A stretch of DNA of 64,000 nt from Mesorhizobium sp. (GTDB lineage Bacteria; Pseudomonadota; Alphaproteobacteria; Rhizobiales; Rhizobiaceae), in assembly GCA_004017535.1 (NCBI GenBank), contig SAJS01000001.1, positions 620,001 through 684,000 of the forward strand, in the 5' to 3' direction. Under the pieces are notes generated by a model. It was not told the origin of the DNA. It worked only from the letters and a program-made list of their open reading frames with translations, and searched no databases. The position numbers and the translations under genes were made by a program. Below are positions 11,982-53,608 of this stretch, piece by piece; the first letter of the stretch is position 1; each line of letters starts with the position of its first letter.

Positions 11982-12012
11982 AAAAAGAGCCGGCGCTGGG
12001 CCGGCCCTTTCT
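11982..12012 (-). terminator. Intrinsic terminator after the MocR gene
   Basis: Read on the minus strand, an AAAGGGCCGGC / GCCGGCTCTTT stem-loop (one mismatch) is followed by TTTTTGTTTG. It lies 17 bases past the stop at 12029 and separates this unit from the mttB-like gene. Confidence 0.85.
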
Positions 12013-33380: not shown

Positions 33381-33415
33381 GTCTCCCCCCATTTCAGATG
33401 CGGTTGGCATAGGTT

Positions 33416-34564
<1,149 letters not shown>

Positions 34565-34603
34565 TTGCGCCTCCGCAGTTCTGCGAGGTCTGTGCACCCA
34601 TCC

Positions 34604-36644: not shown

Positions 36645-38935
36645 ACTTTCAGCCCCGCTGCCGCTTCGCGCTCGGCCAGCCGGTAGATCTGGTCGCGTCC
36701 CGGCAGATAGGGATCGGGCCATTTGACGCCGCGGTCGCCGAGCGTCACCGCCGCATGCAGCGTCCAGTAGGGGTCGGCAAGATGCGGCCTTGCCAGCGCC
36801 ACAAGATCGGCGCGGCCGGCCATCAGGATCGAGTTGGCATGGTCCGGCTCGTAGATGTTGCCGACCGCCATCGTCGCCATGCCGACCTCGTTGCGGATGC
36901 GGTCGGAGAACGGCGTCTGGAACATGCGGCCATAGACCGGCTTGGCGGCGATCGAGGTCTGTCCGGCCGAGACGTCGCAGAGATCGACGCCGGCTTCGCG
37001 CAGCAGCTTTGCGATCTCGACGGCGTCCGCCGGCGTCACGCCTTCGATGCCGACCCAGTCATTGGCCGAGATGCGCATCGAGATCGGCTTTTCCGCCGGC
37101 CACACCGCGCGCACCGCGTGGAAAATCTCCAGCGGATAGCGCATGCGGTTTTCCAGCGAGCCGCCATACTCGTCGGTGCGGCGATTGGTCAGCGGTGTGA
37201 TGAAGGCCGACAGCAGATAGCCATGCGCGGCATGGATCTCCAGCATGTCGAAGCCGCAACGCCCGGCCATCTCAGCCGAGGCGACGAATTGGTCGCGAAC
37301 CATGTCCATGTCGGCGCGGCCCATCGCCTTCGGCACCTGGTTCTGCGGCGACCACGCCACCGCCGACGGCGCCATCACCGGCCAGTTGCCGGAAGGCAAC
37401 GGCACGTCGGTTCCTTCCCAGCCGACGCGGGTCGAGCCCTTGGCGCCGGAGTGGCCGATCTGCGCGCAGATCTTGGCCTCCGTTTCGGCATGGACGAAAT
37501 CGACCAGCCGTTTCCAGGCGACCTCATGCTCCGGCTTGTAGAAGCCGGGGCATCCGGGCGTGATGCGCCCTTCCGGGCTGACGCAGGTCATCTCGATATA
37601 GAGCAGCCCGGCGCCACCCTTGGCGCGCTCGGCATAGTGGGCAAAATGCCAGTCGGTCGGGCAGCCGTCGACCGCCTTGTACTGCGCCATCGGCGAGACG
37701 ACGACGCGGTTGGTGAGCGTCATGTCGCGCAGCTTGAACGGCGCGAACATCGGCGCGCGGCGCAGCATGTTGCCGCCGGCGCCGGCCTTGCGCTGGAACC
37801 ATTCCTCGGCCCCCGCCAGCCATTCGGCATCGCGCAGGCGCAGGTTCTCGTGGCTGATGCGCTGAGAACGGGTGAGCAGCGAATAGTTGAACTGAACTGG
37901 ATCAAGTCCGAGATATCGTTCGACTTCCTCGAACCATTCGAGAGAGTTGCGCGCCGCCGATTGCAGTTTCAGCACCTCGGTACGCCGCGCGTCTTCGTAT
38001 TTGCGGAAGGCCGCCTCGAGGTCCGGCTCCGACTCGACATAGTCGGCCAGCGCGACGGCGCTCTCCAGCGCCAGCTTGGTGCCTGAGCCGATCGAGAAAT
38101 GCGCCGATGCCGCCGCGTCGCCCATCAGTGCCAGGTTCTTGTAAGACCAGCGTTCGCACAGCACGCGGGGGAAGTTGATCCAGGCCGAACCCCTGATGTG
38201 GTTGGCGTTGGTCATCAGCGGGTGGCCGCCGAGATGCTTTGCAAAAATGCGCTCGCAGGCTGCGATCGATTCCTGCTGCGTCATCTGGCCGAAGCCGAAG
38301 GCGTTCCAGGTCTGCTCGCTGCATTCGACGATGAAGGTCGCCGTCTCGCTGTCGAACTGGTAGGCATGTGCCCACACCCAGCCATGTTCCGTCTTCTCGA
38401 AGATGAAGGTGAAGGCGTCGTCGAATTTCTGCGTCGTGCCGAGCCAGACGAACTTGCATTTGCGTGTGTCGATGTCAGGCTTGAACACGTCGGCGAAAGT
38501 GGCGCGGGATTTGGAGTTCAGCCCATCCGAAGCAACCACCAGGTCATGCGTTTCCATGAAGGGTCGCGGATCGGAAATCTCGGTCTCGAACTGCAGCTTG
38601 ATGCCGAGCTCGCGAGCGCGGCGCTGCAGGAGGATCAGCAGCCGCTTGCGGCCGATGCCGCAGAAGCCGTGGCCAGAGGAGACGGTGCGCACGCCGTCAT
38701 GGATGACCGCGATGTCGTCCCAATAGGCAAAGTGCTTCCTGATCCAGACGGCGCTGACCGGGTCGTTCCTGGTCAGGTTATCGAGCGTCTCCGCCGAGAG
38801 CACCACGCCCCAGCCGAACGTATCGTCCGGGCGGTTGCGCTCATAGACCGTCACCTCATGCGCGGCGTCGCGCAGCTTCAGCGAGATGGCAAAGTAGAGG
38901 CCGGCCGGTCCGCCGCCGAGAACCGCAACCTTCAT
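36641..38935 (-). CDS. Bifunctional 2-aminobenzoyl-CoA monooxygenase/reductase (ABM; salicylyl-CoA hydroxylase family)
   Basis: 764 residues, two flavin domains. Residues 1-370 form a PHBH-type FAD monooxygenase ([17 protein letters not shown], then [13 protein letters not shown], and [20 protein letters not shown]). Residues about 395-764 form an Old-Yellow-Enzyme domain ([50 protein letters not shown]). This architecture is that of 2-aminobenzoyl-CoA monooxygenase/reductase from Azoarcus evansii, which hydroxylates and then reduces the ring of anthraniloyl-CoA. A salicylyl-CoA 5-hydroxylase is the alternative. It heads a tightly overlapping six-gene unit with site C in front. Confidence 0.88.
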
Positions 38936-39130: not shown

Positions 39131-39730
39131 TCATTTGCTCGGATCCTTCGGGCTCCACAACACGGTCTCCGCCCCCTTCTCATAGGCCATGCCCTGCGGG
39201 TAGCTGATCGCTTCCAGCTGCAGTCCCCACGGCGCCTGGAAATAGAGGATGGTCTGGCCGGCGGCGGGGCCTTCCTTCACCGGAAGCGGTCCCAGCCTGG
39301 TCTTCACGCCCTTGCCGTCGAGATAGGCCTTCGCGGCGGCGACGTCGTCGACATAGAAGGCGATATGGAAGCCGCCGATATCGCTGTTCTTCGGCGTCAA
39401 ATCCTTCTGGTCGGGCGCGGTGTATTTGAACAACTCGATGTTGGAACCGTTGCCGCAGCGGACCATGGTGATCTCCTGGATCACCGCCTTCGGATCGACG
39501 CCGAGCAGATCCTGCATAAAGGTGCCTTTGTCGTCGGCAAACGGGCCGAACGACATCGCCTTCTTGCAGCCGACGACATCGGTGAAGAAGTCGACGGCCT
39601 GTTTCATGTCGGGCACGGTGATGCCGGTATGGTCGTGCCCGCGCATGCCGGGAATCGAATCCGCCGATGCCGCTCCCATTGCGCCGAACAAGGAGGCCGC
39701 GAGGACCGCTGCCTGGATTGCGTATTTCAT
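39131..39730 (-). CDS. Exported VOC (glyoxalase-like) protein
   Basis: 199 residues with a clear Sec signal peptide (MKYAIQAAVLAASLFGAMGAASA). The mature part is a two-module VOC fold: HDHTGITVPDMKQAVDFFTD at its start and FHIAFYVDDVAAAKAYLDGK in the second module, each with a His at the metal position. VOC domains bind a metal and often aromatic ligands. A periplasmic one is unusual and may bind or modify a substrate before import. It follows the second ABC importer on the same strand, 81 bases after its last gene. Confidence 0.82.
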   Translation of the reverse strand: MKYAIQAAVLAASLFGAMGAASADSIPGMRGHDHTGITVPDMKQAVDFFTDVVGCKKAMSFGPFADDKGTFMQDLLGVDPKAVIQEITMVRCGNGSNIELFKYTAPDQKDLTPKNSDIGGFHIAFYVDDVAAAKAYLDGKGVKTRLGPLPVKEGPAAGQTILYFQAPWGLQLEAISYPQGMAYEKGAETVLWSPKDPSK

Positions 39731-39810: not shown

Positions 39811-40635
39811 TCATCCCGGCGCCTTGGGCCGCAGCCAGTCCGGATCGATCTCCGGCAGCGGAATGGCGGCGAGCAGGTCGCGCGTGTAGGCCTCCTGCGG
39901 ATCGTCGAACAGCGCGTCCGTGGCGCTCGCCTCGACGATCCTGCCTTCGCGCATGACGATGACCTGCTGGCAGAGCCGCCGGATCACCGACAGATCATGG
40001 CTGATGAAGGCGACCGTCAGCCCCATCTCGGCCGCCAGCTTTTCCAGCAGCGTCAGGATCTGCGCCTGGGTCGAGACGTCGAGGCCGGAGACGATCTCGT
40101 CGGCCAGCACGAATTTCGGCGAGAGCGCGAGCGCCCGCGCGATGCCGACGCGCTGCCGCTGGCCCCCGGACAATTCGTGGCGGTAGCGGCTGGCAAAATT
40201 CTGCGGCAGGCCGACGCGCTGCAGCGCTTCCGCGACGCGTTCCTTCAGCCGGTCGCCGAGGCCGTTCTGCCGCAAGGGCGCCGCGATGATGTTGAAGATC
40301 GTGTGCCGCGGATTGAGCGACGACATCGGGTCCTGGAAGATCATTTGCAGGTCGCGGCGCAGCGGCCTGAGCTCAGCCTCCGAAAGATGGCTGATGTCGC
40401 GCCCCTCGAGGCTGATCGCGCCGGCGCTCGGCTCGAGCAGCCGCACCAGCGCGCGCCCGAGCGTCGACTTGCCGGAGCCGGACTCGCCGACGATGCCGGT
40501 GACTGAGCCTTTCGGAAGATCGAAGTCGAGCCCTTTCAGGATTTCGGCCAGCGGCGCGCGGCCGATCAGCGGCTTGCGCGTCATGTCGGGCAGCGCCACC
40601 TTCAGCCCGCGCACGGAAAACAGCGGCTCAGCCAT
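39811..40635 (-). CDS. Oligopeptide-type ABC transporter ATP-binding protein (DppF/OppF-like)
   Basis: 274 residues from MAEPLFSVRGLKVALPDM, overlapping the preceding ATPase gene by 8 bases. Walker A is [12 protein letters not shown], the Q-loop is MIFQDPMSSLNPRHT, the signature is LSGGQRQRV and Walker B is FVLADEIVSGLDVS. It is the second ATPase of the importer encoded at 39.8-45.1 kb. Confidence 0.91.
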   Translation of the reverse strand: MAEPLFSVRGLKVALPDMTRKPLIGRAPLAEILKGLDFDLPKGSVTGIVGESGSGKSTLGRALVRLLEPSAGAISLEGRDISHLSEAELRPLRRDLQMIFQDPMSSLNPRHTIFNIIAAPLRQNGLGDRLKERVAEALQRVGLPQNFASRYRHELSGGQRQRVGIARALALSPKFVLADEIVSGLDVSTQAQILTLLEKLAAEMGLTVAFISHDLSVIRRLCQQVIVMREGRIVEASATDALFDDPQEAYTRDLLAAIPLPEIDPDWLRPKAPG

Positions 40636-41518
40636 GGCTGGGCCTCCAATCCTTGTCGGCGGCTGCGATTTCGGCCGTGAGCCCGGCAAGCACGCTTTCA
40701 TCCACTGGCTTCAGCGAGGCATAGGGATCGGTGTAGCGCGGCGTCGCAGCGATCAGCGCCCGCGTGTAGGGATGCTGCGGAGCGGCGAAGAGCTGCGCGG
40801 TCTCGGCCTCCTCCACCACCTTGCCGGCATAGAGCACCGACACTTTCTGGCTGATCTTGGCGACGACGCCGAGATCGTGGGTCACGAACAGTATTGCCGT
40901 GCCGTGGTCGCGCTGCAACTGCGCGATCAGCCGCAGGATCTGCTTCTGCACGGTGACGTCAAGCGCCGTCGTCGGCTCATCGGCAACGATCAGCCTCGGT
41001 TCCGCGGCGAAGGCGGCCGCGATCAGCACGCGCTGGCGCATGCCTCCTGAAAGCTCGTGCGGATAGCTTTTCAGCACGCGCTCCGGGTCGCGGATCTGCA
41101 CCTCGTCGAGCAATTGCCGGATGCGTGCGTCGGCCCGCTCGCCGCTCCAGCCGAGGATGCGGACCAGACGGTCGGTCATCTGCGCGCCGATGCGGCGCGA
41201 CGGGTTGAGCGCGGTCAGCGGATCCTGCGGGATCAGCGCCGTGCGCGCACCGATCAGGGTCCGCCGCGCCTTGGCATCGAGGCGTCCGAGGTCCTCGCCC
41301 TCGATCAGCATCTCGCCTTCGACGACGCGCACGCTTTTCGGCAGCACGCCGAGCACCGCCTTGCCGATCATCGTCTTGCCGGCGCCGCTCTCGCCGACCA
41401 GCGCGCGCACCTCGCCCGGCTGCACGCTGAGCGACACTGAGCGCAGCACGCGCTGGCCGTTAGGCAGCACGGCGCTCAGGCCGCGGATGTCCAGACATGG
41501 TTCCATATTGGCGCTCAT
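40628..41518 (-). CDS. Oligopeptide-type ABC transporter ATP-binding protein (DppD/OppD-like)
   Basis: 296 residues from MSANMEPCLDIRGLSAVL; the start overlaps the permease stop (ATGA). Walker A is VGESGAGKTMIG, the Q-loop is ALIPQDPLTALNP, the signature is LSGGMRQRV and Walker B is [16 protein letters not shown]-terminal extension typical of the family is present. It works with the next gene product on the cytoplasmic face. Confidence 0.91.
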   Translation of the reverse strand: MSANMEPCLDIRGLSAVLPNGQRVLRSVSLSVQPGEVRALVGESGAGKTMIGKAVLGVLPKSVRVVEGEMLIEGEDLGRLDAKARRTLIGARTALIPQDPLTALNPSRRIGAQMTDRLVRILGWSGERADARIRQLLDEVQIRDPERVLKSYPHELSGGMRQRVLIAAAFAAEPRLIVADEPTTALDVTVQKQILRLIAQLQRDHGTAILFVTHDLGVVAKISQKVSVLYAGKVVEEAETAQLFAAPQHPYTRALIAATPRYTDPYASLKPVDESVLAGLTAEIAAADKDWRPSHG

Positions 41519-42363
41519 CGCAGCACCGGATCGAAGCGCGCCTTCAGCGCTTCGCCGAACTGGCTGAAGGAGAGCACTGTGAGGATTAGCGTGATCAGCG
41601 GGAACACCAGCACCCACCAGGCCTGGTGGATCGATAGCCGGCCCTCGGCGATGATGCTGCCCCAGGTCGGGTCGTCGGTCGAGATCGACAGATTGACGAA
41701 GGACAGGATCGCCTCGACGATCACGGCGATGCCCATTTCGAGCGACAAAAGCGCCACCACCGACGGCAGCACATTGGGCAGCACTTCGCGCAGCATGATG
41801 CCGATGCGGCCATAGCCGGCGATGCGCGCACTCTCGACATAGTCCATCCGCGCCTGGCTCATCGCCTCGGCGCGGATGACCCGGCAGAAGCGCGTCCAGT
41901 CGATGATCGCAATCGCAAGGATGACGGAGCTCAGGCCCGTGCCCAGCACCGCGACCAGCAGGATCGCGAACAGGACCGGCGGGAACGCCATCCAGACATC
42001 GACGACGCGCGAGATGATGCGCTCGGGCCAGCCACCGAAATAGCCGGCGATCAGCCCGAGCGCCGAACCGAGAAGGCAGGCGGACGTCGCCGCGGCAAAG
42101 GCGACGATGAAGGCAATGCGGCCGCCGAAGATCAGCCGCGACAGCAGATCACGTCCCAAGCTGTCGGTGCCCAGCCAATAGCCGGGCTCGGCCCCGTCCA
42201 GCCAGAAGGGCGGCAGCCGCTCCAGCATCAGATCCTGCGCCAGCGGGTCCTGCGGCGCAATCAGCGGCGCGAAGATGGCCGCCAGTAGCGCCATGAGCAG
42301 CCAGCAGCCGGCCAGCCACAGCCGTGGGCTTACCGGCCGTCGGGAGATGCGCGCCTCATCCAT
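41515..42363 (-). CDS. Oligopeptide-type ABC transporter permease (DppC-like)
   Basis: 282 residues from MDEARISRRPVSPRLWLAG, overlapping the DppB-like stop by 8 bases. It has about six spans, the YWLGTDSLGRDLLSRLIFGGR motif and the EAA loop (YVESARIAGYGRIGIMLREVLP). It is the heterodimer partner of the permease encoded just before it. Confidence 0.91.
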   Translation of the reverse strand: MDEARISRRPVSPRLWLAGCWLLMALLAAIFAPLIAPQDPLAQDLMLERLPPFWLDGAEPGYWLGTDSLGRDLLSRLIFGGRIAFIVAFAAATSACLLGSALGLIAGYFGGWPERIISRVVDVWMAFPPVLFAILLVAVLGTGLSSVILAIAIIDWTRFCRVIRAEAMSQARMDYVESARIAGYGRIGIMLREVLPNVLPSVVALLSLEMGIAVIVEAILSFVNLSISTDDPTWGSIIAEGRLSIHQAWWVLVFPLITLILTVLSFSQFGEALKARFDPVLR

Positions 42364-43363
42364 GGCGCAGCCTCGGATTGAGCAACGCATACATCATGTC
42401 GACGGCAAGGTTGATCAGCACAAAGAGCAGCGCGAAGACCAGCACGATGCCCTGGATCAGCGGCAGGTCGCGGTTGATGACGGCGTCGATCGCCATGTTG
42501 CCGAGGCCTTCATAGGAAAACAGCCGCTCGACGATGACGGTGCCGCCGATGAGGAAGGTGAATTGCACGCCGACCAGCGTCAGCGTCGGCAGGGCCGCGT
42601 TCTTCAGCGCCTCGCGCAGGATCACCTGTGTCTCAGAAAAGCCTTTGACACGCGCCAGCACGACATAGTCGAGGTCGAGCACTTCCTTCAGCGACTGTTT
42701 GAGCAATTGCGCGATGATCGCCGCCAGCGGCAACGCCAGCGCAACGGCCGGCATGAGCATGTGCTTGAGCAGGTCCCAGGTCAGGTCGAAACGCAGCCTG
42801 AGAATGCTCTCGACAAGATAGAACTGGGTGACGAAAGGCAGATCGAGCTGCGGCGACACCCGGCCGGAAATGTCGAATACCGGCACCAGCACGCCAAACA
42901 AAAGGATCAGCACCAGACCCCACAAGAAGTCGGGGATGGAGAGCGTCGCGCCGCTGGCGATGTCGATGCCGGCCTCGATGGCCGTGCCGCGCGAGCGCGC
43001 GCCGAGGATCGCGGCGGTGACGCCGAGCGCGATCGCCATCAGCAGGGCCACGGTCGCCAGCTCCAGCGTCGCCGGCAGCCGGTCGAAGACAAGGCCGAGC
43101 ACGTCCTGGCGCAACGAGATCGACGTGCCGAAATCGCCTTGCAGCACGCCGCCGAGCCAGATGAAGAATTGCTGCACGATTGACTTGTCGAGCCCGTAGA
43201 GCGCGCGCAGCCGGGCGATGTCGTCATCGCTGGCGCCGGGCGGCAGCATCATGGCGATCGGGTCGCCGGGGGCGACGCGGATGACGACGAAGACGACGAT
43301 GGCGACGCCAAACAGCGTCACCAGCATCGTCAACAGACGAACGAGGAATCTCTGCAGCAGCAT
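42356..43363 (-). CDS. Oligopeptide-type ABC transporter permease (DppB-like)
   Basis: 335 residues from MLLQRFLVRLLTMLVTLFG at 43363. An earlier start at 43417 would reach into the repeat at 43391 and gives an odd N-terminus. It has six spans and the usual GDFGTSISLRQDVL periplasmic loop and EAA loop (DYVVLARVKGFSETQVILREAL). Confidence 0.9.
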   Translation of the reverse strand: MLLQRFLVRLLTMLVTLFGVAIVVFVVIRVAPGDPIAMMLPPGASDDDIARLRALYGLDKSIVQQFFIWLGGVLQGDFGTSISLRQDVLGLVFDRLPATLELATVALLMAIALGVTAAILGARSRGTAIEAGIDIASGATLSIPDFLWGLVLILLFGVLVPVFDISGRVSPQLDLPFVTQFYLVESILRLRFDLTWDLLKHMLMPAVALALPLAAIIAQLLKQSLKEVLDLDYVVLARVKGFSETQVILREALKNAALPTLTLVGVQFTFLIGGTVIVERLFSYEGLGNMAIDAVINRDLPLIQGIVLVFALLFVLINLAVDMMYALLNPRLRHG

Positions 43364-43390
43364 GCGTGCGTAATCACTCTGAACGGACTC

Positions 43391-43508
43391 CCCCCTCATC
43401 CGGCCCTTCGCGGCCACCTTCTCCCCGAGGGGAGAAGAGGTCGCGGAGGCTGAGCTGGTCTCCTCTCCCTCGGGGAGAAGGTGGCCGCGAAGCGGCCGGA
43501 TGAGGGGG
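43391..43508. repeat. Palindromic intergenic repeat between binding-protein and permease genes
   Basis: 118-base inverted repeat with arms of about 47 bases, beginning CCCCCTCATCCGGCCCTTCG and ending with its near-perfect complement. The middle holds CCTTCTCCCCGAGGG repeats. This CCTCATCCGGC/CCACCTTCTCCCC family is common between genes in rhizobia. Inside this operon it would fold in mRNA and could raise the level of the binding protein over the permeases. Confidence 0.85.
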
Positions 43509-43547
43509 CCCTGCCGGGCGAAGACCGGCAGGGTGCAAGGCCGATGA

Positions 43548-45074
43548 TCAGGCCGGGGTCATCAGCGCCGGCAGCAACGCGCCGGACACGTGCTGCACGA
43601 CATTGACCTTCTTCGAATGCACGATCGGCTGCGCATACTGCATCAGCGGCAGCACATAGGCCTGCTCGGCGATATATTTGTCGACCGCCTTCCAGCCGGC
43701 GATGCGCTTGGCCTCGTCCTTCTCGCCCCAGAGCGGGTTGATCATGTCGACAAGGTCCTTGCTGTCCCACACCGAATGCGGGCTCGGGCCGTACATGGCG
43801 AAGCCGGTCGAGGTGGTCGGGTCGCCGATGGAATTGCCCCAATTGTAGAAGGCGGCCGGCGCCAGCTTGTCGGCAGCGCGCAGCTCGTAATGCTTGGCGA
43901 TCTCGTAGACCTCGATCTTGGCCTCGATGCCGACCTTGCGCCACATGCCGACGATCGCCTGGATCATCTCATAGTCCTTGGGTTTGAAGCCCTTGGTGGT
44001 CTGTATGGTGAACTTGACCGGCTTCTTGGGCGAATAGCCGGAGGCGGCTAGCAATTCCTTGGCTTTCTCCGGGTTGTGCTCGACCTTGATCGAGGGATCG
44101 AAGGCCGTGTATTCCGGCGTCTCCAGCGTCGCGATCGGCTGGCCGTAGCCGCGCAGCAGGCGCTTGACCAGGAGTTCCTTGTCGACCGCCATCACGGCCG
44201 CCTGGCGGACGTTCTTGTCCAGCATCGCCTCGATGTCGTTGAAGAAGATCATGCCGATGTCGGAGACGTTCTTGATTGAGCCGGCAAGCCCGTCCTTGGC
44301 GATCAGCCGGTCATACTCCTCATAGGGGATTTCGAGCGTCACCTGCGAGGAGCCGGACTCGATCTCGGCGACACGGCTCGCCGCGTCGGTGACGAACTTG
44401 ATCGTCACATTTTCGAAGGCCGGCTTCGTGCCCCAATAATGCGGATTGGCCTTCAGCCGCAGGAAGGCGTTGCGCTCGAACTTGTCGACCATATAGGGGC
44501 CGGTGCCGATCGGCGCCTTCTCGAAGCCTTCGGCCCCGACCTTCTCGTAATAGGCTTTCGGCAGGATGTAGCCGGTCAGGAACGACATCCACTTGAAATA
44601 GACCGGATCGAACTGGACGACGTCGCCGGTGATCTTGTTGCCGTCGATCTTGAAGTTGTTGACGTTCTTCCAGACGAACTGGATCGGGTTGCCGGTCTTC
44701 TCGTCGCCGGCGCGGGTCAGCGACCACACGACGTCTTCCGGCGTGAAAGGCGAGCCGTCATGCCATTTGACGCCCTCGCGCACCGTCATCGTCACCTTGG
44801 TGCGGTCGTCGTTCCAGCCCCATTCGGTGAGCAGCCCGGGCGTGAAGGAGAGGTCCGGCTTCTGACCTATGATCTGGTCGAACACCGACTGGTAGAGGCC
44901 CTGGATGGTCGGGTTGACAGCCGAGGGCCCGGTGGTCGGGTCCCAGGAGGGCAGGTTGACGTTGTAGGCGATGGTGAGCTCATCGGCCGCCTTGGCCGCC
45001 CTCGGCAGGCCAAGCGTCGCCGCGCCGATCGCGGCGGCGCCATATCCAAGCAAGTCGCGTCTGTTGATGGTCAT
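43548..45074 (-). CDS. Family-5 ABC transporter binding protein, Tat-type signal
   Basis: 508 residues. The signal sequence has a twin-arginine motif (MTINRRDLLGYGAAAIGAAT) and ends near RAAKA. The mature part is a DppA/OppA-type solute-binding protein (YNVNLPSWDPTTGPSAVNPT, GLLTEWGWNDDRTKVTMTVR, KWHDGSPFTPEDVVWSLTR). It delivers a peptide-like or other compound to the permeases that follow. Placed between the FAD oxidoreductase next to isatin hydrolase and the permeases, it may bind an island substrate, which need not be a peptide. Confidence 0.88.
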   Translation of the reverse strand: MTINRRDLLGYGAAAIGAATLGLPRAAKAADELTIAYNVNLPSWDPTTGPSAVNPTIQGLYQSVFDQIIGQKPDLSFTPGLLTEWGWNDDRTKVTMTVREGVKWHDGSPFTPEDVVWSLTRAGDEKTGNPIQFVWKNVNNFKIDGNKITGDVVQFDPVYFKWMSFLTGYILPKAYYEKVGAEGFEKAPIGTGPYMVDKFERNAFLRLKANPHYWGTKPAFENVTIKFVTDAASRVAEIESGSSQVTLEIPYEEYDRLIAKDGLAGSIKNVSDIGMIFFNDIEAMLDKNVRQAAVMAVDKELLVKRLLRGYGQPIATLETPEYTAFDPSIKVEHNPEKAKELLAASGYSPKKPVKFTIQTTKGFKPKDYEMIQAIVGMWRKVGIEAKIEVYEIAKHYELRAADKLAPAAFYNWGNSIGDPTTSTGFAMYGPSPHSVWDSKDLVDMINPLWGEKDEAKRIAGWKAVDKYIAEQAYVLPLMQYAQPIVHSKKVNVVQHVSGALLPALMTPA

Positions 45075-45157: not shown

Positions 45158-46732
45158 CTAGTTCCCTCCCAGCTGTTGGGCGAGCATGTAGCCGGAGCCC
45201 GCGCCTGTGCCGGCGCCCGGCCATGTGGCAGCGCCGGTGAGGTAGAGGTTCGAGACCGGCGTGTTCCAGCGCGCGAAGCCGCGCGCCGGGCGGAAGAGAA
45301 AATTCTGCGCCAGATGGTGGCTGCCGCAGATCTGGTCGCCGCCGACCAGGTTCGGGTTTTCGCGCTCGAGATCGAGCGGCGAGAAGATCGCGCGGCCAAG
45401 GATTTTTTGGCGCAGCCCAGGCGCGTAGCTCTCGATGATGTCGAGCACGCGCTCGGCATAGGCTTCCTTGACCGCATCCCACTTCGCCGGCGCGATCTTG
45501 CCCGCGGCATCACCGAGGATCTCGGCCGGCAACATGCGCACCTGCACCCACAGCACATGCTTGCCTTGCGGCGCGCGCGACGGGTCGACGGCCGTCGGCT
45601 GGCCGACCACGAGCACGGGCTGATCGGGCAACTGGCCGGCGATCGCCTGCTGGTAGGTGCGCGACATGGCATCGAGCGACGGCGCCAGATGCACATAGGC
45701 GAACTGGCGAAGCTCGGCGCCGGCGCTCCAGTCCGGCAACTCGTCCATCGCCAGATGGATCATCATGGTGCCCGGCGCATGGCGGAATTTCCGCATTGCC
45801 GCATCGAAGCCGGCGTTGCCCGACCCGTTGGGCAGCAGCTTGCCCGGCAGCGCTTTCGGCGCGACACCGGCGATGACGGCCTTGGTCGCGACATGGGTTT
45901 CGCCGGATGCCAGCCGCACCCCAGTCGCCTTGCCGTTGGAAACCATGATCTCGGCGACATCCGCGCCGGTCGTGATCTGGCCGCCGGCCGCCTTCACCAT
46001 GCCGGCGAGCGCGAGGATGATGGTGTCGGCGCCGCCTTTGCCCAGCACCATGCCGAAGCTCTGGTTGGCCATCGACTCCAGATAGGGGAAGACGGCGCCC
46101 CCGGCGATGTCGGGCGCGAAGTCGAGATGCATGCCCCAGGCGGCGAGCGTCGTCCGCACATGCGGCGTCTCGAAATTTTCATCCAGCCACGCGCGCGGCG
46201 ATGACAGCAGCAATCGGGCCGTATCCAGCGCGCCGGCAAGGCCCTTCTTGCGCCAGAGATTCCAGCCCGTGCCTGCCAGCGCCCTTGCGCTCATCGGAGA
46301 CCCCAGCAGCCGGAACAGATGCTCGGCCTCGCCCGGAAAAGCGCCCACCAGTTTCCGCCATGTGGCCGCGTCTGCCGCGGAGAAGGCGGCCAGCCGAGAG
46401 GCGGTCTTTTCAAGGTCGTTGCTGACGCCGAACCATTTCCCATCCGGGAAGGCGCTGGCGAAACAATCGGCCACGGGCGCAAACTCCAACCCTTGGCTTT
46501 TCAATTCATTTGCATATTTCCGGTGGAAGGCGGAGCCGGCGAAAAGGCTCAGATTCATCGCGCCGAAATCGTGGCGGAAGCCGGGAAGCGTGTATTCGGC
46601 GGTCCGCACCGCGCCGCCAATCGTCTGGCTGCGCTCGAAAACCGCTATTTTCCAGCCTTTGAGCGCCAGATGCGCGGCGCATGCCAGACTGTTGTGGCCC
46701 GCCCCGACAAAGATGGCGTCGAACTCGCTCAC
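45158..46732 (-). CDS. FAD-dependent oxidoreductase (phytoene dehydrogenase-like), paralogue 1
   Basis: About 524 residues from the GTG at 46732 (VSEFDAIFVGAGHNSL); a TTG 12 bases earlier is possible. The Rossmann motif is VGAGHNSLACAAHLALKG, with the second FAD segment GAVRTAEYTLPGFRHDFGA and the C-terminal LYLTGAATWPGAGTGAGSG. It belongs to the phytoene desaturase/amine-oxidase superfamily (flavoprotein dehydrogenases or oxidases). It resembles the gene at 47795 along its whole length. It is divergent from isatin hydrolase with site D between, so it may act on an indole-type precursor of isatin. Confidence 0.83.
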   Translation of the reverse strand: MSEFDAIFVGAGHNSLACAAHLALKGWKIAVFERSQTIGGAVRTAEYTLPGFRHDFGAMNLSLFAGSAFHRKYANELKSQGLEFAPVADCFASAFPDGKWFGVSNDLEKTASRLAAFSAADAATWRKLVGAFPGEAEHLFRLLGSPMSARALAGTGWNLWRKKGLAGALDTARLLLSSPRAWLDENFETPHVRTTLAAWGMHLDFAPDIAGGAVFPYLESMANQSFGMVLGKGGADTIILALAGMVKAAGGQITTGADVAEIMVSNGKATGVRLASGETHVATKAVIAGVAPKALPGKLLPNGSGNAGFDAAMRKFRHAPGTMMIHLAMDELPDWSAGAELRQFAYVHLAPSLDAMSRTYQQAIAGQLPDQPVLVVGQPTAVDPSRAPQGKHVLWVQVRMLPAEILGDAAGKIAPAKWDAVKEAYAERVLDIIESYAPGLRQKILGRAIFSPLDLERENPNLVGGDQICGSHHLAQNFLFRPARGFARWNTPVSNLYLTGAATWPGAGTGAGSGYMLAQQLGGN

Positions 46733-46748
46733 GCCCCGCCCCAAAATG

Positions 46749-46851: not shown

Positions 46852-47643
46852 ATGGACACGCAGAAACTCCTCGGCGAGGTCGCCGGCCAGCTGCTCTCGG
46901 GCGCCATCAAGGTGGTCGACCTGACGGCGCCGCTCGGGCCGAACACGCCACTGATCAAGCTGCCGCCGGAGCTTGCCGTCGACACGCCGAAGGTCGAGAT
47001 CCACGAGATTTCCAAATACGACAAGAACGGTCCGTGGTGGGCCTGGAACTGGCTGAAGCTCGGCGAGCATTCGGGCACGCATTTCGACGCGCCGCAGCAC
47101 TGGATCACTGGCAAGGACTATCCGGACGGCGCCACCGACACCATTCCGGCGCAGAATTTTATCGGCCCGGTCAACGTGATCGACTGCTCCAAGGAAGCGG
47201 CTGAAGACCACGACTTCCTGCTCACCGTCGACCACATCAAGGCCTGGGAGGCCAAGCATGGCGCCATCAATGCCGGCGAGTGGGTGGTGATGCGCACCGA
47301 CTGGTACAAGCGCAACGGCTCGGAAGCCGAGTTCCTCAACGCCAACGAGACCGGCCCGCACACGCCCGGCCCGACGGCCGAGGCCATCCAGTTCCTGATC
47401 AGCAAGGACATCAAGGGCTGGGGCTCGGAGACGATCGGCACCGATGCTGGTAAAGCAGGAGGAATGGAGCCGCCGTTCCCGGCGCACACGCTGATGCACA
47501 AGGCCAATCGCTATGGCCTCGCCAGCCTCTGCAATCTCGACCAGCTGCCGCCGAAGGGCGCTATCCTGATCGCGGCCCCGCTCAAGATCGAGCGCGGCAC
47601 CGGCAGCCCGATCCGCGCGCTGGCGCTGGTGCCGGGCAAATAG
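46852..47643 (+). CDS. Isatin hydrolase (metal-dependent cyclase/kynurenine formamidase fold)
   Basis: 263 residues from MDTQKLLGEVAGQLLSG with AAGAGGGAA before the ATG. The metal-site motif HSGTHFDAPQHW places His73, His77 and Asp79. To my knowledge these are the Mn ligands in the isatin hydrolase of Labrenzia aggregata, and the sequence around it (WWAWNWLKLGEHSGTHFDAP, GTDAGKAGGMEPPFPAH) also matches that enzyme as I remember it. It opens the lactam ring of isatin to isatinate (2-aminophenylglyoxylate). A general cyclase-family amidase is the alternative. It is the first gene of the rightward unit ending with the ferredoxin oxidoreductase. Confidence 0.88.
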   Translation: MDTQKLLGEVAGQLLSGAIKVVDLTAPLGPNTPLIKLPPELAVDTPKVEIHEISKYDKNGPWWAWNWLKLGEHSGTHFDAPQHWITGKDYPDGATDTIPAQNFIGPVNVIDCSKEAAEDHDFLLTVDHIKAWEAKHGAINAGEWVVMRTDWYKRNGSEAEFLNANETGPHTPGPTAEAIQFLISKDIKGWGSETIGTDAGKAGGMEPPFPAHTLMHKANRYGLASLCNLDQLPPKGAILIAAPLKIERGTGSPIRALALVPGK

Positions 47644-47794
47644 GGCGAGGCGGCGGTCTTCGGGAGAAGATCATGCTCGAGGGCAATGGAGTGATGGAGG
47701 CGATGCGACCGTCCTGGAGCGTCAGCGCTCTACTGCGCGAAGGAACTCGGCTTTGCGCGATTGACGTCCATTTCTTGACCGCGAGCACCCCTCA

Positions 47795-49366
47795 ATGACC
47801 GCCGCCGATCACATCATCGTCGGCAGCGGCATCAACGCCCTGGTCTGCGCGGCGATGCTTGGCGCCAAGGGCGCCAAGGTGCTCGTGCTCGAGCGCAACG
47901 ACCGCATCGGCGGCTGCATGCGGACCGAGGAGATCACCGCGCCGGGCTTCGTTCATGACGTGATGGCCACGACCTTCGTCCTGTTCGTCACGTCGCCGGC
48001 CTTTGCAGCACTCGGCAAGGACCTCGCGCGGCATGGGCTGGAGTTCTGCCATACGGCCACGCCCACCGGCGTGCTCACGCCCGACGGCAGCCATGCCGTG
48101 CTCACCACCGACCGCGCCGCCAACATTGCGGCGTTGAACCGGATCGCCTCGGGCGACGGCGACCGCCATGGCGGCGATGTCGGCGGCATCGAGCGCGATG
48201 CCGGGCTGCTGTTCGGCCTGCTCGGCGGCGCGCTCTGGTCCTATCCGACCACGAAGCTGCTTGCCGGCGAAGCCTGGCGGCGCGGCTCGCGCAACCTCGC
48301 CGCCTTCATGGGCGAGGCGCTGGTGCCCGCGCGCGGCTGGCTGGAAACGAGCTACACCTCCGATATTGTCCGCGCGCTCTGGGCGCCCTGGGTGCTGCAT
48401 GCCGGGCTTGGACCGGAAGACGCCTTCTCCGGCCAGATCGCCAAGGTCATCGCCTTCGCGCTGGAGGCCGCCGGTGCCCCCATTGTGAAGGGCGGCGCGA
48501 AAAACCTGCTCGCCGCCTTGGAAGCGCTGATCAAGGAACGAGGCGGCGAGATCCGCGTCAGTGCCGATGTCGCCTCGGTCGTCCAGAGCGGCGGCCGTGC
48601 CACCGGTGTGCGGCTCGCCTCCGGCGAGACGTTGAGCGCCACGAAGAGCGTCATCTGCTCGGTCACGCCGACGCAGCTCTATGGCCGCCTGCTCGACAAG
48701 GATGCGCCGGAAGCAGCCACCAAGGCCACGCAGTCCTATCGCTACGGAAAGGGCAATTTCCAGATCCACTACGCGCTGAACAAGCCGCCCGCATGGCGAG
48801 GCGAGGGCCTCGACAAGGTGGCGCTGCTGCATTTGACGCCGGGGCTCGACGGCGTCTCCAAAGCCTGCAACGAAGCGGTGCGGGGCATGCTGCCTGAGGT
48901 GCCGACCATCTGCGTCGGCCAGCCGCACGCGCTCGATCCCTCGCGCTGCCCGGAAGGCAAGGCGATCCTGTGGCTGCAGCTTCCGGAAGCGCCGCGCCAC
49001 ATCAAGGGCGATGCCGCCGGCAAGCTGGAGGCGTCGGCTGACGGGCGCTGGACCGAGGCACTGCGCGAGGCCTATGCCGACCGGGTCGAGGCGATCCTCG
49101 CCAACCACATCGATGGTTTCCGCGACACGGTCATCGCGCGCCGTGCCTATTCGCCGGCTGATCTCGAGGCGATGAACATCAATCTGGTCGGCGGCGATCC
49201 GTATGGAGGCTCGTCCACCATCGACCAGTCCTTCCTGTGGCGGCCGTTCAAGGCGAGCCGCAACCACGAGACCGGCGTCAAAGGCCTCTACCATATCGGC
49301 GCTTCGACCCATCCGGGAGCCGGCCTAGGCGGCGGCTCCGGCTTCCTTCTGGCGGGGAGGCTCTGA
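47795..49366 (+). CDS. FAD-dependent oxidoreductase (phytoene dehydrogenase-like), paralogue 2
   Basis: 523 residues from MTAADHIIVGSGINALV. Rossmann motif VGSGINALVCAAMLGAKG, then ERNDRIGGCMRTEEITAPGF and the C-terminal LYHIGASTHPGAGLGGGSG. Same superfamily and length as the product of 45158-46732. The two genes flank isatin hydrolase and probably arose by duplication. It would transfer electrons from a cyclic or amine substrate to FAD. Its stop overlaps the MarR start by one base (TGATG). Confidence 0.83.
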   Translation: MTAADHIIVGSGINALVCAAMLGAKGAKVLVLERNDRIGGCMRTEEITAPGFVHDVMATTFVLFVTSPAFAALGKDLARHGLEFCHTATPTGVLTPDGSHAVLTTDRAANIAALNRIASGDGDRHGGDVGGIERDAGLLFGLLGGALWSYPTTKLLAGEAWRRGSRNLAAFMGEALVPARGWLETSYTSDIVRALWAPWVLHAGLGPEDAFSGQIAKVIAFALEAAGAPIVKGGAKNLLAALEALIKERGGEIRVSADVASVVQSGGRATGVRLASGETLSATKSVICSVTPTQLYGRLLDKDAPEAATKATQSYRYGKGNFQIHYALNKPPAWRGEGLDKVALLHLTPGLDGVSKACNEAVRGMLPEVPTICVGQPHALDPSRCPEGKAILWLQLPEAPRHIKGDAAGKLEASADGRWTEALREAYADRVEAILANHIDGFRDTVIARRAYSPADLEAMNINLVGGDPYGGSSTIDQSFLWRPFKASRNHETGVKGLYHIGASTHPGAGLGGGSGFLLAGRL

Positions 49367-49848
49367 TGGAACAGAAGCTCGCCGAAAAGCGCCAGCGCAT
49401 CTCGACCCTCGGCCAGATCGGCCTGCAGCAGTTCGCGCCCTATCTGATGAACCGTATCATGGGCCGCTACAACGCCACTTTGCGCGAGGATTTCCGTAAG
49501 CAGGGTCTTACCATTCCGCAGGTGCGGACGCTCGCCGTGCTCTCGGTCACCGACGGCGTCACCGTCAACGACCTCTCGGTCTACACGGTGATCGAGCAGT
49601 CGACCTTGAGCCGTACGCTCGACACGCTGGAGGGCCAGGGCCTTGTGCGGCGCGAGCAAGGCGTCACCGACAGCCGGATCCGCCATGTGTTCCTGACCGA
49701 TGACGGACGCGCGCTGTTCACCCGCGCCTGGCCGGCCATGCACGACGCTTTCGAGGCGATGTTCGAGGATGTCGACGATGCCGAATACGCCGCGCTGATC
49801 GCGATCCTGCAGAAGATGCTGAGGAACATCCGCAAGCACGACATCTGA
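49366..49848 (+). CDS. MarR-family regulator (second of two in the island)
   Basis: 160 residues from MEQKLAEKRQRISTLGQIG; GGGGAGG precedes the ATG and the start overlaps the FAD-gene stop by one base. The winged HTH is VNDLSVYTVIEQSTLSRTLDTLEGQGLVRREQGV followed by the wing DSRIRHVFLTDDG. Being inside the isatin hydrolase unit behind site D, it is the other candidate to bind the four palindromes. Its ligand may be an indole acid, isatin or isatinate. Confidence 0.9.
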   Translation: MEQKLAEKRQRISTLGQIGLQQFAPYLMNRIMGRYNATLREDFRKQGLTIPQVRTLAVLSVTDGVTVNDLSVYTVIEQSTLSRTLDTLEGQGLVRREQGVTDSRIRHVFLTDDGRALFTRAWPAMHDAFEAMFEDVDDAEYAALIAILQKMLRNIRKHDI

Positions 49849-49893
49849 GTTGACATACGCGCCGCCTGACTGCGGCAACGGAAGGAGGCAGAG

Positions 49894-52047
49894 ATGGCCG
49901 AACGGTCTTTTGCCAAGGAAGTCGAAAAGCTGAGGCTGGGCGCCGGCCAGGAATTCGCCGGCGAGGGCATCCTCGCCATCACCAAGGCGCTGCTGCAATG
50001 CGGCGTCGGCTACGTCGGCGGCTACCAGGGCGCGCCGATCAGCCACCTGATGGACGTGCTCGCCGACGCGCAGGACATTCTGGGCGAGCTCGGCGTGCAT
50101 TTCGAGGCAAGCGCCTCGGAAGCGACCGCCACAGCCATGCTTGCCGCTTCGGTGCACTACCCGATCCGCGGTGCGGCCACCTTCAAGTCGACCGTCGGCA
50201 CCAACGTCGCTTCCGATGCGCTCGCCAATCTGGCGTCCGGCGGCGTCACCGGCGGCGCGCTCATCATTGTCGGCGAGGACTATGGCGAGGGCTCCTCCAT
50301 CATGCAGGAGCGCAGCCATGCCTTCGCCATGAAGAGCCAGGTCTGGCTGCTCGACCCGCGCCCGAACCTGCCCTCGATCGTCAAGGCGGTCGAGGACGGC
50401 TTCGAATTGTCGGAGGTCTCCAACACGCCGGTAATGCTGCAGGTGCGCATCCGCTGCTGCCACGTCCATGGCCACTTCACCGCCAAGGACAACAAGCGCC
50501 CGCCAATGTCGGTCGCCGATGCGCTTGCCGCGCCGCGCCGCGACACCGGCCGCATCGTGCTGCCGCCCGCTTCCTTCCTGCATGAGAAGGAGAAGGTCGC
50601 CAAGCGCTGGCCGGCCGCGGTGGATTTCATCAAGAGCCGCAAGATCAATGAGATGTTCGGGTCGGCCCATGGCTCGGTCGGCATCGTCATGCAGGGCGGC
50701 ATGTACAATTCCGTCATCCGCGCACTGCAGCGGCTCGGCCTTGCCGACACCTATGGCGAAACCGACGTGCCGCTTTATGTGCTGAACGCCGTCTACCCGT
50801 TGATTGACGACGAGTTCCTCGCCTTCTGCGAAGGCAAGCAGGCGGTGCTGGTCGTCGAGGAAGGCCAGCCGAACTATATCGAGCAGGCGTTCGCGGCCAT
50901 GCTGCACAAGGCCGGCCGCGGCACGAAGCTCGTCGGCAAGGAGCATCTGCCGATGGCCGGCGAATATACTGGACAGATCATGCTTGACGGCATCGGCTCC
51001 TTTCTGCGCGCCAACGCCCCGCATCTCTTGCCTGGCGAGGTGCGCGCGCCGAACAAGCTGGGCGAGGGCGTCGACACGGCGGACCTCATCAATGTCGTGC
51101 CTGGACGTCCGCCGGGCTTCTGCGTCGGCTGTCCGGAGCGGCCGATCTTCGCCGCGACCAAGCTGGTCGAGCAGGAGCTCGGCAAGCACCACATCGCCTC
51201 CGACATCGGCTGCCACCTGTTCTCGATCATGCCGCCCTTCGAGCTCGGCGCCACCACCATGGGCTACGGGCTGGGGCCCGCCTCGGCCTCCGCCTTCAAC
51301 TCGCCGGAAGCGAAACGCCGCTCGATCTCCTTCGTCGGCGACGGCGGTTTCTGGCACAACGGCCTCACCTCCTCGATCGGCAACGCCGTCTTCAACCGGA
51401 ATGACGGCGTCATCGTCATCGTCGACAACTTTTACTCCGCAGCCACCGGCGGCCAGGACATCCTGTCATCGCGCGCCAACAACCGCACCAAGTCGACCAA
51501 GCATCCGATCGACGAGGCGGTGAAGGGCATGGGGGTCAAATGGCTGCGCCACATCGACCGCACCTATGATGTCGGCAAGATGCGCGCTGCATTGCGCGAC
51601 GCGCTGACGACCGAGGAGAAGGGGCCGAAGGTCATCGTTGCCTCATCCGAATGCATGCTCAACCGCCAGCGCCGCGAAAAACCGCTGGTCGACAAGGCGA
51701 TCAAGGGCGGTGAGCGCGTGGTGAAGCCGAAATTCGGGGTCGACGAGGACATCTGCACCGGCGACCATGCCTGCATGCGGCTCTCCGGCTGTCCGTCGCT
51801 GTCGGTGAAGTCGCTCGACGATCCGCTGCGTGACGATCCGGTCGCCTCGATCGACCAGAACTGCGTCGGCTGCGGCAATTGCGGCGAGGTGGCGGATGCC
51901 GCGGTGCTCTGCCCCTCCTTCTACCGCGCTGATGTCGTGCACAATCCTAGCCGCTGGGACCGCTTCCTCGAAAGCGCGCGCCGCGCCGTGATCGGCCGTT
52001 TGCAGCGCCGCCGCGAGAGCCGCCGTTTGATGTTCGCCGATGCTTGA
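49894..52047 (+). CDS. 2-oxoacid:ferredoxin oxidoreductase, TPP/Fe-S subunit (IorA-like)
   Basis: 717 residues with GGAAGGAGG upstream. Domains in order: pyrimidine-binding and transketolase-like part (VGGYQGAPISHLMDVLADAQ at about 40-60), TPP-binding core with CVGCPERP (about 410) and SFVGDGGFWHNG, and a C-terminal 2x4Fe-4S ferredoxin domain (CTGDHACMRLSGCPS and CVGCGNCGEVADAAVLCPS). This is the alpha subunit type of indolepyruvate:ferredoxin oxidoreductase. The enzyme oxidatively decarboxylates an aryl 2-oxo acid with CoA. Next to isatin hydrolase, isatinate (itself an aryl 2-oxo acid) is the proposed substrate, giving 2-aminobenzoyl-CoA. Confidence 0.88.
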   Translation: MAERSFAKEVEKLRLGAGQEFAGEGILAITKALLQCGVGYVGGYQGAPISHLMDVLADAQDILGELGVHFEASASEATATAMLAASVHYPIRGAATFKSTVGTNVASDALANLASGGVTGGALIIVGEDYGEGSSIMQERSHAFAMKSQVWLLDPRPNLPSIVKAVEDGFELSEVSNTPVMLQVRIRCCHVHGHFTAKDNKRPPMSVADALAAPRRDTGRIVLPPASFLHEKEKVAKRWPAAVDFIKSRKINEMFGSAHGSVGIVMQGGMYNSVIRALQRLGLADTYGETDVPLYVLNAVYPLIDDEFLAFCEGKQAVLVVEEGQPNYIEQAFAAMLHKAGRGTKLVGKEHLPMAGEYTGQIMLDGIGSFLRANAPHLLPGEVRAPNKLGEGVDTADLINVVPGRPPGFCVGCPERPIFAATKLVEQELGKHHIASDIGCHLFSIMPPFELGATTMGYGLGPASASAFNSPEAKRRSISFVGDGGFWHNGLTSSIGNAVFNRNDGVIVIVDNFYSAATGGQDILSSRANNRTKSTKHPIDEAVKGMGVKWLRHIDRTYDVGKMRAALRDALTTEEKGPKVIVASSECMLNRQRREKPLVDKAIKGGERVVKPKFGVDEDICTGDHACMRLSGCPSLSVKSLDDPLRDDPVASIDQNCVGCGNCGEVADAAVLCPSFYRADVVHNPSRWDRFLESARRAVIGRLQRRRESRRLMFADA

Positions 52048-53608
52048 TCACAACGCAGCGCTGCGCCCGAAGACGGGCGCCTCTGATGACGAGCGGGTGA
52101 TAAAACTCGCCGTTCTCGCCGTCGGCGGCCAGGGCGGCGGCGTGTTGGCCGATTGGATCACCGACGTCGCCGAGCGCAACGGCTACATCGCGCAATCGAC
52201 CTCCGTGGCCGGCGTCGCCCAGCGCACCGGTGCGACGATCTACTACATCGAGATGGCCCGCGACATCGGCCGGCTGCCCGTCTTCGCGTTGTCGCCCTCG
52301 CAGGGCGATGTCGACATCCTGATCGCCGCCGAGCTGATGGAAGCCGGCCGCGCCATCATCCGCGGCTTCGTCACGCCCGAGCGCACCACGCTGATCACCT
52401 CCTCGCACCGCATCGCCGCCGTCTCGGAAAAGATCGAGCCGGGCGACGGGCGCGCCTCGTCGGAAAAGGTGCACGCGACGGCTGAGGCCGCGGCGAAGCG
52501 CTTCATCGCCTTCGACATGGAAAAGATCGCTGCCGATAACGGCACCATGATCTCGGCCAGCCTGCTCGGCGCGCTGGCCGGGTCCGGCGCGTTGCCCTTC
52601 ACCCGCGAAAGCTATGAGCAGGCGATCGGCGCCGGCGGTCGTGGTGTGAAAGCCAGCCTCGCCGCCTTCGGCGCGGGTTGTGACCGCGCACGCGGCATCG
52701 CGGCCGCGCCAACAAGCGAGAAGGTGGCGAAGCCTGCCGCCGAACCCAACTCGACGGCGAAGGTCAGCGGACCGGAAACCCTGCTGAAGGGCTGGCAGCA
52801 GCTTGCCGCCCGCGTCGCGGCGCTGCCGGAGCCGCTGCGCGACATGGCCGACCGCGGCCTGAAAAAGGTGGTCGACTACCAGGACATCGCCTATGGCGGC
52901 GAATATCTCGACCGGCTGGACAAGGCGGTCCCGCTGGACAATGCGGAGCGCGGCTATGCGCTGTCGATCGCCGCGGCAAAGCATCTCGCCAACGCCATGT
53001 GCTACGACGACATGATCCGCGTCGCCGATCTGAAGACGCGTTCGACCCGCGACAAGCGCGTGCGCAAGGAGGTCGGGGTCAAGGAAGGTTCGGTCCTGCA
53101 GGTCACCGAATATTTCCATCCGCGCATCGAGGAATTCTGCGGCACAATGCCGGCAGGGCTCGGCAGCTACATCGAGAGCCGGCCGAAACTCGCCGCCTTC
53201 CTCGACCGCCGCATCAATCGCGGCCGCCACATTCGCACCGACAGTCTTTCAGGCTTCGCCATGCTGTGGTTCATCGGCGGTCTGCGCCGCTGGCGCCGCC
53301 GCCTGCTGCGTCACAAAGTCGAAGTCGAGCATCTTGAGCAGTGGTACCAACTGGCGCTCAGCAATGCGCGCCAGGACTACGCTCTAGCCACCGAAATCCT
53401 GAACTGCCGCCGGCTGATCAAGGGCTACAGCGACACCCATGCCCGCGCCCAGTCGAAATTCGACCGCGTGCTCTCGGCCCTGCCCATGCTCAAGGGCCGC
53501 GACGACGCCGCCGACTGGCTCCGTCGGCTGCGCGAGGCGGCGCTGAAGGACGAAAAGGGCGACATGCTCGACGGCGCGCTGAAGACGGTGGCGACGCTGG
53601 GCCGATAG
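52040..53608 (+). CDS. 2-oxoacid:ferredoxin oxidoreductase, gamma-domain subunit with C-terminal extension (IorB-like)
   Basis: 522 residues, overlapping the alpha-subunit stop by 8 bases. The first 200 or so residues form the gamma domain typical of IorB (LAVLAVGGQGGGVLADWITD, STSVAGVAQRTGATIYYIEM). The remaining 320 residues, rich in Arg and Lys and mainly helical, look like the DUF6537-type extension seen in large IOR proteins of aerobic proteobacteria. It completes the enzyme with the preceding subunit. It is the last gene of the rightward unit. Confidence 0.85.
   Translation: MLDHNAALRPKTGASDDERVIKLAVLAVGGQGGGVLADWITDVAERNGYIAQSTSVAGVAQRTGATIYYIEMARDIGRLPVFALSPSQGDVDILIAAELMEAGRAIIRGFVTPERTTLITSSHRIAAVSEKIEPGDGRASSEKVHATAEAAAKRFIAFDMEKIAADNGTMISASLLGALAGSGALPFTRESYEQAIGAGGRGVKASLAAFGAGCDRARGIAAAPTSEKVAKPAAEPNSTAKVSGPETLLKGWQQLAARVAALPEPLRDMADRGLKKVVDYQDIAYGGEYLDRLDKAVPLDNAERGYALSIAAAKHLANAMCYDDMIRVADLKTRSTRDKRVRKEVGVKEGSVLQVTEYFHPRIEEFCGTMPAGLGSYIESRPKLAAFLDRRINRGRHIRTDSLSGFAMLWFIGGLRRWRRRLLRHKVEVEHLEQWYQLALSNARQDYALATEILNCRRLIKGYSDTHARAQSKFDRVLSALPMLKGRDDAADWLRRLREAALKDEKGDMLDGALKTVATLGR

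Follow-up and report, generated by a model that had tools for sequence, protein, structure and literature searches.

A stretch of 64,000 nucleotides from Mesorhizobium sp. (assembly GCA_004017535.1, contig SAJS01000001.1, positions 620,001 to 684,000, here called the window and numbered from its first letter) holds a gene for an isatin hydrolase (IH) and, downstream of it, genes for a two-subunit 2-oxo-acid oxidoreductase, IorA/IorB (IorAB). It is proposed, with a probability of about 0.7, that IorAB is an isatinate oxidoreductase yielding 2-aminobenzoyl-coenzyme A (2-aminobenzoyl-CoA). Isatin is a degradation product of plant auxin and indole, and isatinate is 2-aminophenylglyoxylate, i.e. 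an aryl 2-oxo acid. In the proposed pathway IH (46852-47643) would open isatin to isatinate, which IorAB (49894-53608), a predicted thiamine-diphosphate (TPP) and iron-sulphur enzyme, would decarboxylate oxidatively with transfer of the acyl group to CoA. The products would be 2-aminobenzoyl-CoA and the reduced form of ferredoxin or of another low-potential carrier. The thioester would then enter the operon of a 2-aminobenzoyl-CoA monooxygenase/reductase-like fusion protein (ABM, 36641-38935, with beta-oxidation-like genes down to 32985), without free anthranilate and without an ATP-using ligase. In the portions of the open-licence PMC literature that were covered no description of this reaction was found; the enzyme family itself is known, and phenylglyoxylate oxidoreductase would be a precedent for the chemistry.

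Enzymes of the proposed pathway

The isatin hydrolase gene (plus strand, Pfam Cyclase) is well identified, as its product matches isatin hydrolase B (PDB 4j0n) with 438 bits (E 2e-130) over 260 residues, and this sequence match is accompanied by the metal motif of the solved isatin hydrolases (HxxxHxD in the alignment); the metal ligands are named in the available part of PMC6117287. Kynurenine formamidase was rejected for this gene (30 bits to its structure vs 438 to isatin hydrolase), and the arylformamidase model gave only 33 bits with a cut-off of 223.

The IorA-like gene (49894-52047, plus strand) encodes a subunit with a TPP domain and a putative ferredoxin domain, and the IorB-like gene (52040-53608, plus strand), sharing 8 bases of overlap with it, encodes a POR gamma (PF01558, 63 bits, cut-off 27) and DUF6537 (PF20169) protein. 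The earlier note on this DNA, in which the reaction was first suggested, had grouped IH with both subunits in one unit (46852-53608) and had placed the ABM-like gene at 36641-38935. The three genes indeed form one plus-strand run and ABM lies on the minus strand, and the run also contains a CrtO/CrtI-like oxidoreductase gene and a MarR regulator gene. The TPP domain of IorA (PF02775, TPP_enzyme_C, 61 bits) was examined in an alignment of 36 sequences, consisting of the window IorA and 35 members of a locus set that comprises, with their flanks, the best 80 of the 593 IorA relatives encoded among 596 pattern matches. G482, D483, G484, D511 and N512 are invariant, and GDG...N is presumably the TPP motif of the 2-oxo-acid:ferredoxin oxidoreductase superfamily. 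The ferredoxin domain, which in this superfamily carries two 4Fe-4S clusters, is a weak match (Fer4_10, 21.5 bits, under the cut-off of 25.5), with C621, D624, C627, C633, C657, C660, C663 and C673, that is seven cysteines and one aspartate, invariant in the same alignment. D624 replaces the second cysteine of the first ferredoxin motif in 36/36 sequences, a similar C-x-x-D is found in the other indolepyruvate oxidoreductase (IOR)-type protein of the genome, and the substitution may change a cluster. The first six residues of IorA (MAERSF) are invariant as well; such conservation at the very start of an enzyme seems uncommon. The predicted structure of IorA is poor (mean pLDDT 67.9, pTM 0.54) and uninformative on substrate or CoA binding; Foldseek returned mostly general TPP-dependent enzymes (TM about 0.2), with 2-oxoglutarate:ferredoxin oxidoreductase 6n2n_A at rank 44 (TMt 0.45). 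By sequence, IorA gave no match among solved structures, and IorB gave only weak matches to unrelated proteins.

ABM reaches 1266 bits against NF006101 (cut-off 1078) and carries the fusion of a flavin adenine dinucleotide (FAD) monooxygenase domain with an old-yellow-enzyme domain by which ABM is defined; the name of NF006101 refers to salicylyl-CoA, so the substrate is putative. The minus-strand operon continues with genes for an SDR dehydrogenase (35871-36722, start uncertain, family scan), a MarR-family regulator (35413-35943; weak MarR-type matches, best 48 bits, under the cut-off), an enoyl-CoA hydratase (34604-35431; NF006107, 479 bits, cut-off 330), an acyl-CoA dehydrogenase (33416-34597, family scan), after which a CoA ligase gene often stands in relatives, and a RidA-like protein (32985-33419; TIGR00004, 51 bits, under the cut-off of 106). 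A common order in genomes without IorA is ABM, SDR, MarR, enoyl-CoA hydratase, acyl-CoA dehydrogenase, ligase and RidA, with variants. In the window the RidA-like gene abuts the acyl-CoA dehydrogenase gene with no ligase in between, which makes this operon a ligase-less form.

Co-occurrence of the genes

The same 397 genomes of the host's order were searched with IorA, ABM, IH and the benzoate-CoA-ligase family. IorA, counted at 65% identity or above, is present in 60 genomes (11 others with only weaker matches are excluded from these), IH in 53 and ABM in 128. Every one of the 53 IH genomes also has IorA at this identity and ABM, so that IH is found in 53/60 IorA genomes, and ABM is found in 58/60 of them vs 70/337 others (Fisher p 1e-58 and 5e-31, shared ancestry ignored). 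The layout of IH and IorA is beyond chance, because the two lie no more than 10 kb apart in 36/53 genomes with both (no more than 30 kb in 44/53); for IorA and ABM, a distance of 30 kb or less is seen in 26/67 genomes with ABM and any IorA match. Among the best 80 of 593 relatives, nearly all of the closest being from Mesorhizobium, IorB accompanies IorA in 79/80 loci and IH (at least 45% identity) in 52/80, or in 45/65 when only loci with complete flanks are counted. In compact loci such as L022, L075 and L076 IH stands directly before MarR-IorAB. Five loci (L043, L046, L050, L051, L055) combine ABM, IH and IorAB and contain no ligase gene, which in the L050 and L051 genomes is located elsewhere. 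In Sulfitobacter sabulilitoris (locus L035) a single strand carries IorA, IorB, a 4HBT-type thioesterase, ABM, SDR, MarR, enoyl-CoA hydratase, acyl-CoA dehydrogenase and RidA, with no ligase in that run. Its genome (G407) has a ligase about 0.9 kb from kynureninase and no IH match, therefore the link of IorAB with ABM is possible without this isatin hydrolase. The thioesterase gene between IorB and ABM (L035:13706-14125) hints at CoA thioesters in that operon.

These associations bear on a different assignment, according to which the substrate of IorAB is another aryl 2-oxo acid, such as indolepyruvate or phenylpyruvate, and the pair stands beside IH for regulatory reasons. The family names would suit it, as would the seven IorA genomes that have no IH. 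IorB fits the looser model of indolepyruvate oxidoreductase beta (NF006179, PRK08312; 717 bits, cut-off 348), as does IorB of Achromobacter (locus L073, 701 bits). Both subunits nevertheless fall far under the indolepyruvate equivalog cut-offs (TIGR03336 272 of 651 bits, TIGR03334 45 of 206 bits), and IorA is present in all 53 IH genomes and nearly always together with ABM (58/60). Moreover, a separate indolepyruvate-type oxidoreductase with a single long frame (1167 aa) is encoded elsewhere in the same genome (L001; G000:C11:406658-407221 and flanks), therefore indolepyruvate need not be the substrate of IorAB. Such a role is considered unlikely.

Ligase genes in ABM regions and in whole genomes

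If IorAB makes 2-aminobenzoyl-CoA, an adjacent ABM operon needs no ligase. In the window, the NCBIfam scans gave no ligase-family match for any main open reading frame (ORF) from 26.5 to 54.2 kb, and the earlier note's statement that the island has no aryl-CoA ligase holds. The one ligase among the 35 window ORFs scanned (a subset of the ORFs), at 16918-18951, was rejected as the missing ligase, being of the long-chain fatty-acid type (PRK07059, 1029 bits). ABM regions were then compared for all 53 genomes with IH, IorA and ABM and for 60 of the 61 ABM genomes without an IorA match (G395 left out), while 14 ABM genomes with an IorA match outside the group defined by IH and 65% identity are not in the set; a regional ligase means a benzoate-CoA-ligase-family gene with at least 45% identity to a reference. 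With regions cut by contig ends included, a ligase is present in 52/60 regions of genomes without IorA, in 8/26 with IorA no more than 30 kb away (p 5.9e-7 against the former) and in 17/27 with IorA elsewhere. In full-length regions the counts are 46/54, 8/25 and 17/21 (without vs near p 4.9e-6, near vs elsewhere p 0.001, without vs elsewhere p 0.73), and where ABM has at least 51% identity they are 46/49, 8/22 and 17/20. A per-genus majority count of full-length regions gives a ligase in 18/23 without IorA vs 4/14 with IorA near (p 0.005).

The loss extends to whole genomes. In the window genome (6.86 Mb) nothing exceeds the benzoate-CoA-ligase cut-off (TIGR02262, best 272.9 of 375 bits), and there were 0 matches at E <= 1e-60 to P0006, a relative's ligase that is itself over the family cut-off; the best TIGR02262-like gene (C55) was rejected as a ligase orthologue at 30% identity. 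P0006 was searched in 61 genomes, namely the 53 and the 8 IorA-less ones with a ligase-less region. All 8 have a ligase elsewhere (54-83% identity), so 60/60 of the IorA-less genomes examined have one, and the ligase is lacking in 9/53 genomes with IH, IorA and ABM vs 0/60 ABM genomes without IorA (p 0.0007). The nine are the window genome (G000), G096, G079, G183, G188, G235 (a 33% match only), G255, G265 and G382. A second set comprised 45 genomes to which the IorA loci belong (best 80 of 593, partly overlapping the first set; L030 and L055 left out); 6 of these have no ligase, five of the six with IH and ABM. Pacificibacter (L041, L043) and Yoonia (L046) are among the five, so that ligase-less genomes occur in more than a single order.

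ABM is intact and under purifying selection in two of the ligase-less genomes. The ratio of non-synonymous to synonymous substitution (dN/dS) between the window genome and G096 is 0.063 (dN 0.022, dS 0.35), equal to that between the window genome and the ligase-bearing G207. Being intact and constrained without a ligase, ABM is probably still useful, and IorAB is probably its obvious feeder.

Where the ligase is kept, its surroundings are informative. In genome G123 it follows the genes for tryptophan 2,3-dioxygenase (429 bits vs a cut-off of 391) and kynureninase (391 vs 246). Beyond these two stands a TrpX-like transporter gene, and on the other side of the ligase, further out, there is a gene for a lipase. 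The full arrangement is found in G064 and G279, kynureninase, dioxygenase and ligase in G189, and kynureninase and ligase in G207. In the window genome (L211:8413-10550) and in G096 kynureninase adjoins the lipase gene at the matching site and the ligase is gone. As the ligase is kept in 44/53 genomes with IH, IorA and ABM (as a fragment only in G165) and lies no more than 5 kb from kynureninase in 15/35 genomes that have the two genes, it probably serves anthranilate from other sources.

Weight of the evidence

A number of points weigh against the proposal. Substrate, CoA product, electron carrier and direction of the pathway are what we infer from the genes, and the reaction is itself part of the prediction. 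The ligase is retained by the 44 genomes just named and by 39/45 of the second set (E <= 1e-100), and in 20/35 genomes it is not within 5 kb of kynureninase. Its absence refers to the benzoate-CoA-ligase family; the searches did not extend to ligases of other types or to CoA-transferases. A loss of kynureninase from ligase-less genomes had been predicted and failed, since the gene is present in 3/9 of them (the window genome, G096, G188) vs 35/44 ligase-bearing ones; in the second set 1/6 ligase-less genomes has it (G415). With kynureninase retained in the window genome, free anthranilate can still arise there without an orthologous ligase. IH is missing from 7/60 IorA genomes and likewise from 7/45 in the second set, and the p-values ignore shared ancestry save the genus-level count. 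Finally, an iad construct in Variovorax, described below, restored anthranilate, apparently without iadAB (in the accessible text of PMC12633357), therefore another route from isatinate to anthranilate exists in that host.

Some of these points would be accommodated if CoA took no part in the oxidation of isatinate by IorAB, so that free anthranilate was formed, and if 2-aminobenzoyl-CoA was then made by a ligase from a different family. The widespread retention of the ligase and the kynureninase of the window genome agree with such a route, as do reports that degradation by iad loci ends at anthranilate (PMC9613470 and PMC12633357, as far as their text was available). It is made rather unlikely by the nine genomes, including that of the window, which have IH, IorAB and ABM without a ligase orthologue, and by ABM regions that lack the ligase mainly where IorAB is near. 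Furthermore, enzymes of the IorAB family usually yield CoA thioesters.

Of the earlier suggestion that isatinate is converted to 2-aminobenzoyl-CoA, the succession of IH, IorAB and ABM without a ligase is borne out by co-occurrence, operon composition, genome-wide ligase loss and selection on ABM, and the reaction itself stays a prediction. Its further claim, a bypass of anthranilate and its ligase, fits the window genome and eight others and does not extend to the 44 similar genomes that keep the ligase. If the proposal is true, it explains why IorA and ABM occur in every sampled IH genome of the order, and thioester energy would be conserved, just before an oxygen-using enzyme, from a 2-oxo acid for which pathway schemes usually show conversion to free anthranilate.

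Neighbouring genes

Within the isatin unit a CrtO/CrtI-like FAD oxidoreductase gene (47795-49366, plus strand; NF045689, 171 bits, far under the cut-off of 1000), found beside IH in many loci, is followed by the MarR-family regulator gene (about 49387-49848, plus strand; start approximate, the ORF opens at 49237; HpaR-like, 49 bits, under the cut-off of 121), which by the synteny of IorA relatives precedes IorA in many loci. Divergent from IH lies a second CrtO/CrtI-like gene (45158-46744, minus strand, family scan and synteny). The two oxidoreductases are about 39% alike and flank IH in many relatives, and both may produce isatin or its precursor. Next comes an Opp/Nik-type ABC transporter with a binding protein, two permeases and two ATPases (39811-45074, minus strand, family scan).

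With these genes in mind, the substrate of IorAB could be some other aryl 2-oxo acid with an ortho-amino group, derived from an indole-type compound by way of the CrtO-like oxidases and the peptide-type transporter, with isatinate as a side substrate. In many loci the transporter is conserved together with the two CrtO-like genes, and seven second-set genomes, including that of S. sabulilitoris, have IorA and ABM without IH. The strong identification of isatin hydrolase and its place directly before MarR-IorAB in the compact loci argue the other way, and this variant is regarded as very improbable.

A VOC/glyoxalase-like protein is encoded at 39131-39730 (minus strand; weak matches under the cut-offs), near IorA or the transporter in some loci; its N-terminus resembles a signal peptide by eye. 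Outside the island, 10217-11983 holds a trimethylamine methyltransferase-like gene (353 of 525 bits, under the curated cut-off).

Relation to known systems

Among the closest known counterparts is the iad type of auxin-degrading locus, of which iadA and iadB are described as exclusive marker genes in the part of PMC9613470 available. The pair in Achromobacter veterisilvae L073 is 69% (IorA) and 49% (IorB) identical to that of the window, and the succession of genes there (MarR, A, B, reductase, Rieske alpha, Rieske beta, AMP-ligase, thiolase, ..., cyclase) agrees with that of iad loci. Judging from this identity and order, compared at Achromobacter and not Variovorax, the window IorA and IorB are orthologues of IadA and IadB, a relationship that the earlier note does not mention. 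Unlike the iad loci of Variovorax, Bradyrhizobium and Achromobacter, the window unit lacks genes for Rieske proteins, a side-chain ligase and a thiolase, and isatin must have another source; the window genome has four Rieske alpha matches. No reaction assigned to IadAB was found in the portions of the iad literature examined. In Variovorax a compound with the formula of isatinic acid, C8H7NO3, built up strongly only in the iadC-K2 strain, and the authors regard the accumulated compounds as likely intermediates toward anthranilate (PMC12633357, part of the text). By its gene names this construct apparently omits iadA and iadB, and the accumulation fits the absence of an isatinate-consuming enzyme. 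A Pseudomonas cluster, iadHABICDEFG, uses the names iadA and iadB in a different order (PMC8383072, in part) and was left out of the evidence considered here.

On balance we lean towards IorAB/IadAB being an isatinate:ferredoxin oxidoreductase (2-aminobenzoyl-CoA forming), which would be the missing step by which isatin derived from auxin or indole enters the aerobic CoA pathway, with the ATP of the ligase saved. The free anthranilate of iad strains would in that case come from leakage or a side route. Such an assignment would give a job to the IadAB gene pair and fill in the last part, around isatin, of auxin catabolism under aerobic conditions.

The indolepyruvate:ferredoxin oxidoreductase IorAB shares the domain family and the two-subunit plan with the window pair, which differs in scoring under the equivalog cut-offs and in its context of isatin and ABM rather than amino-acid degradation. 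Phenylglyoxylate:acceptor oxidoreductase PadEFGHI is a five-subunit, anaerobic enzyme that converts phenylglyoxylate to benzoyl-CoA. It would thus catalyse the corresponding reaction of the unsubstituted substrate, whereas the window pair consists of two subunits and would be followed in its pathway by a monooxygenase, ABM. In the 2-aminobenzoyl-CoA pathway of Azoarcus evansii the thioester is made by 2-aminobenzoate-CoA ligase, of which no orthologue was found in the window genome; from that point the ABM fusion is followed by beta-oxidation enzymes, as in the window, and the 170 kDa reported for the ABM homodimer fits the 764-residue subunit encoded there (PMC4539516, in the text available).

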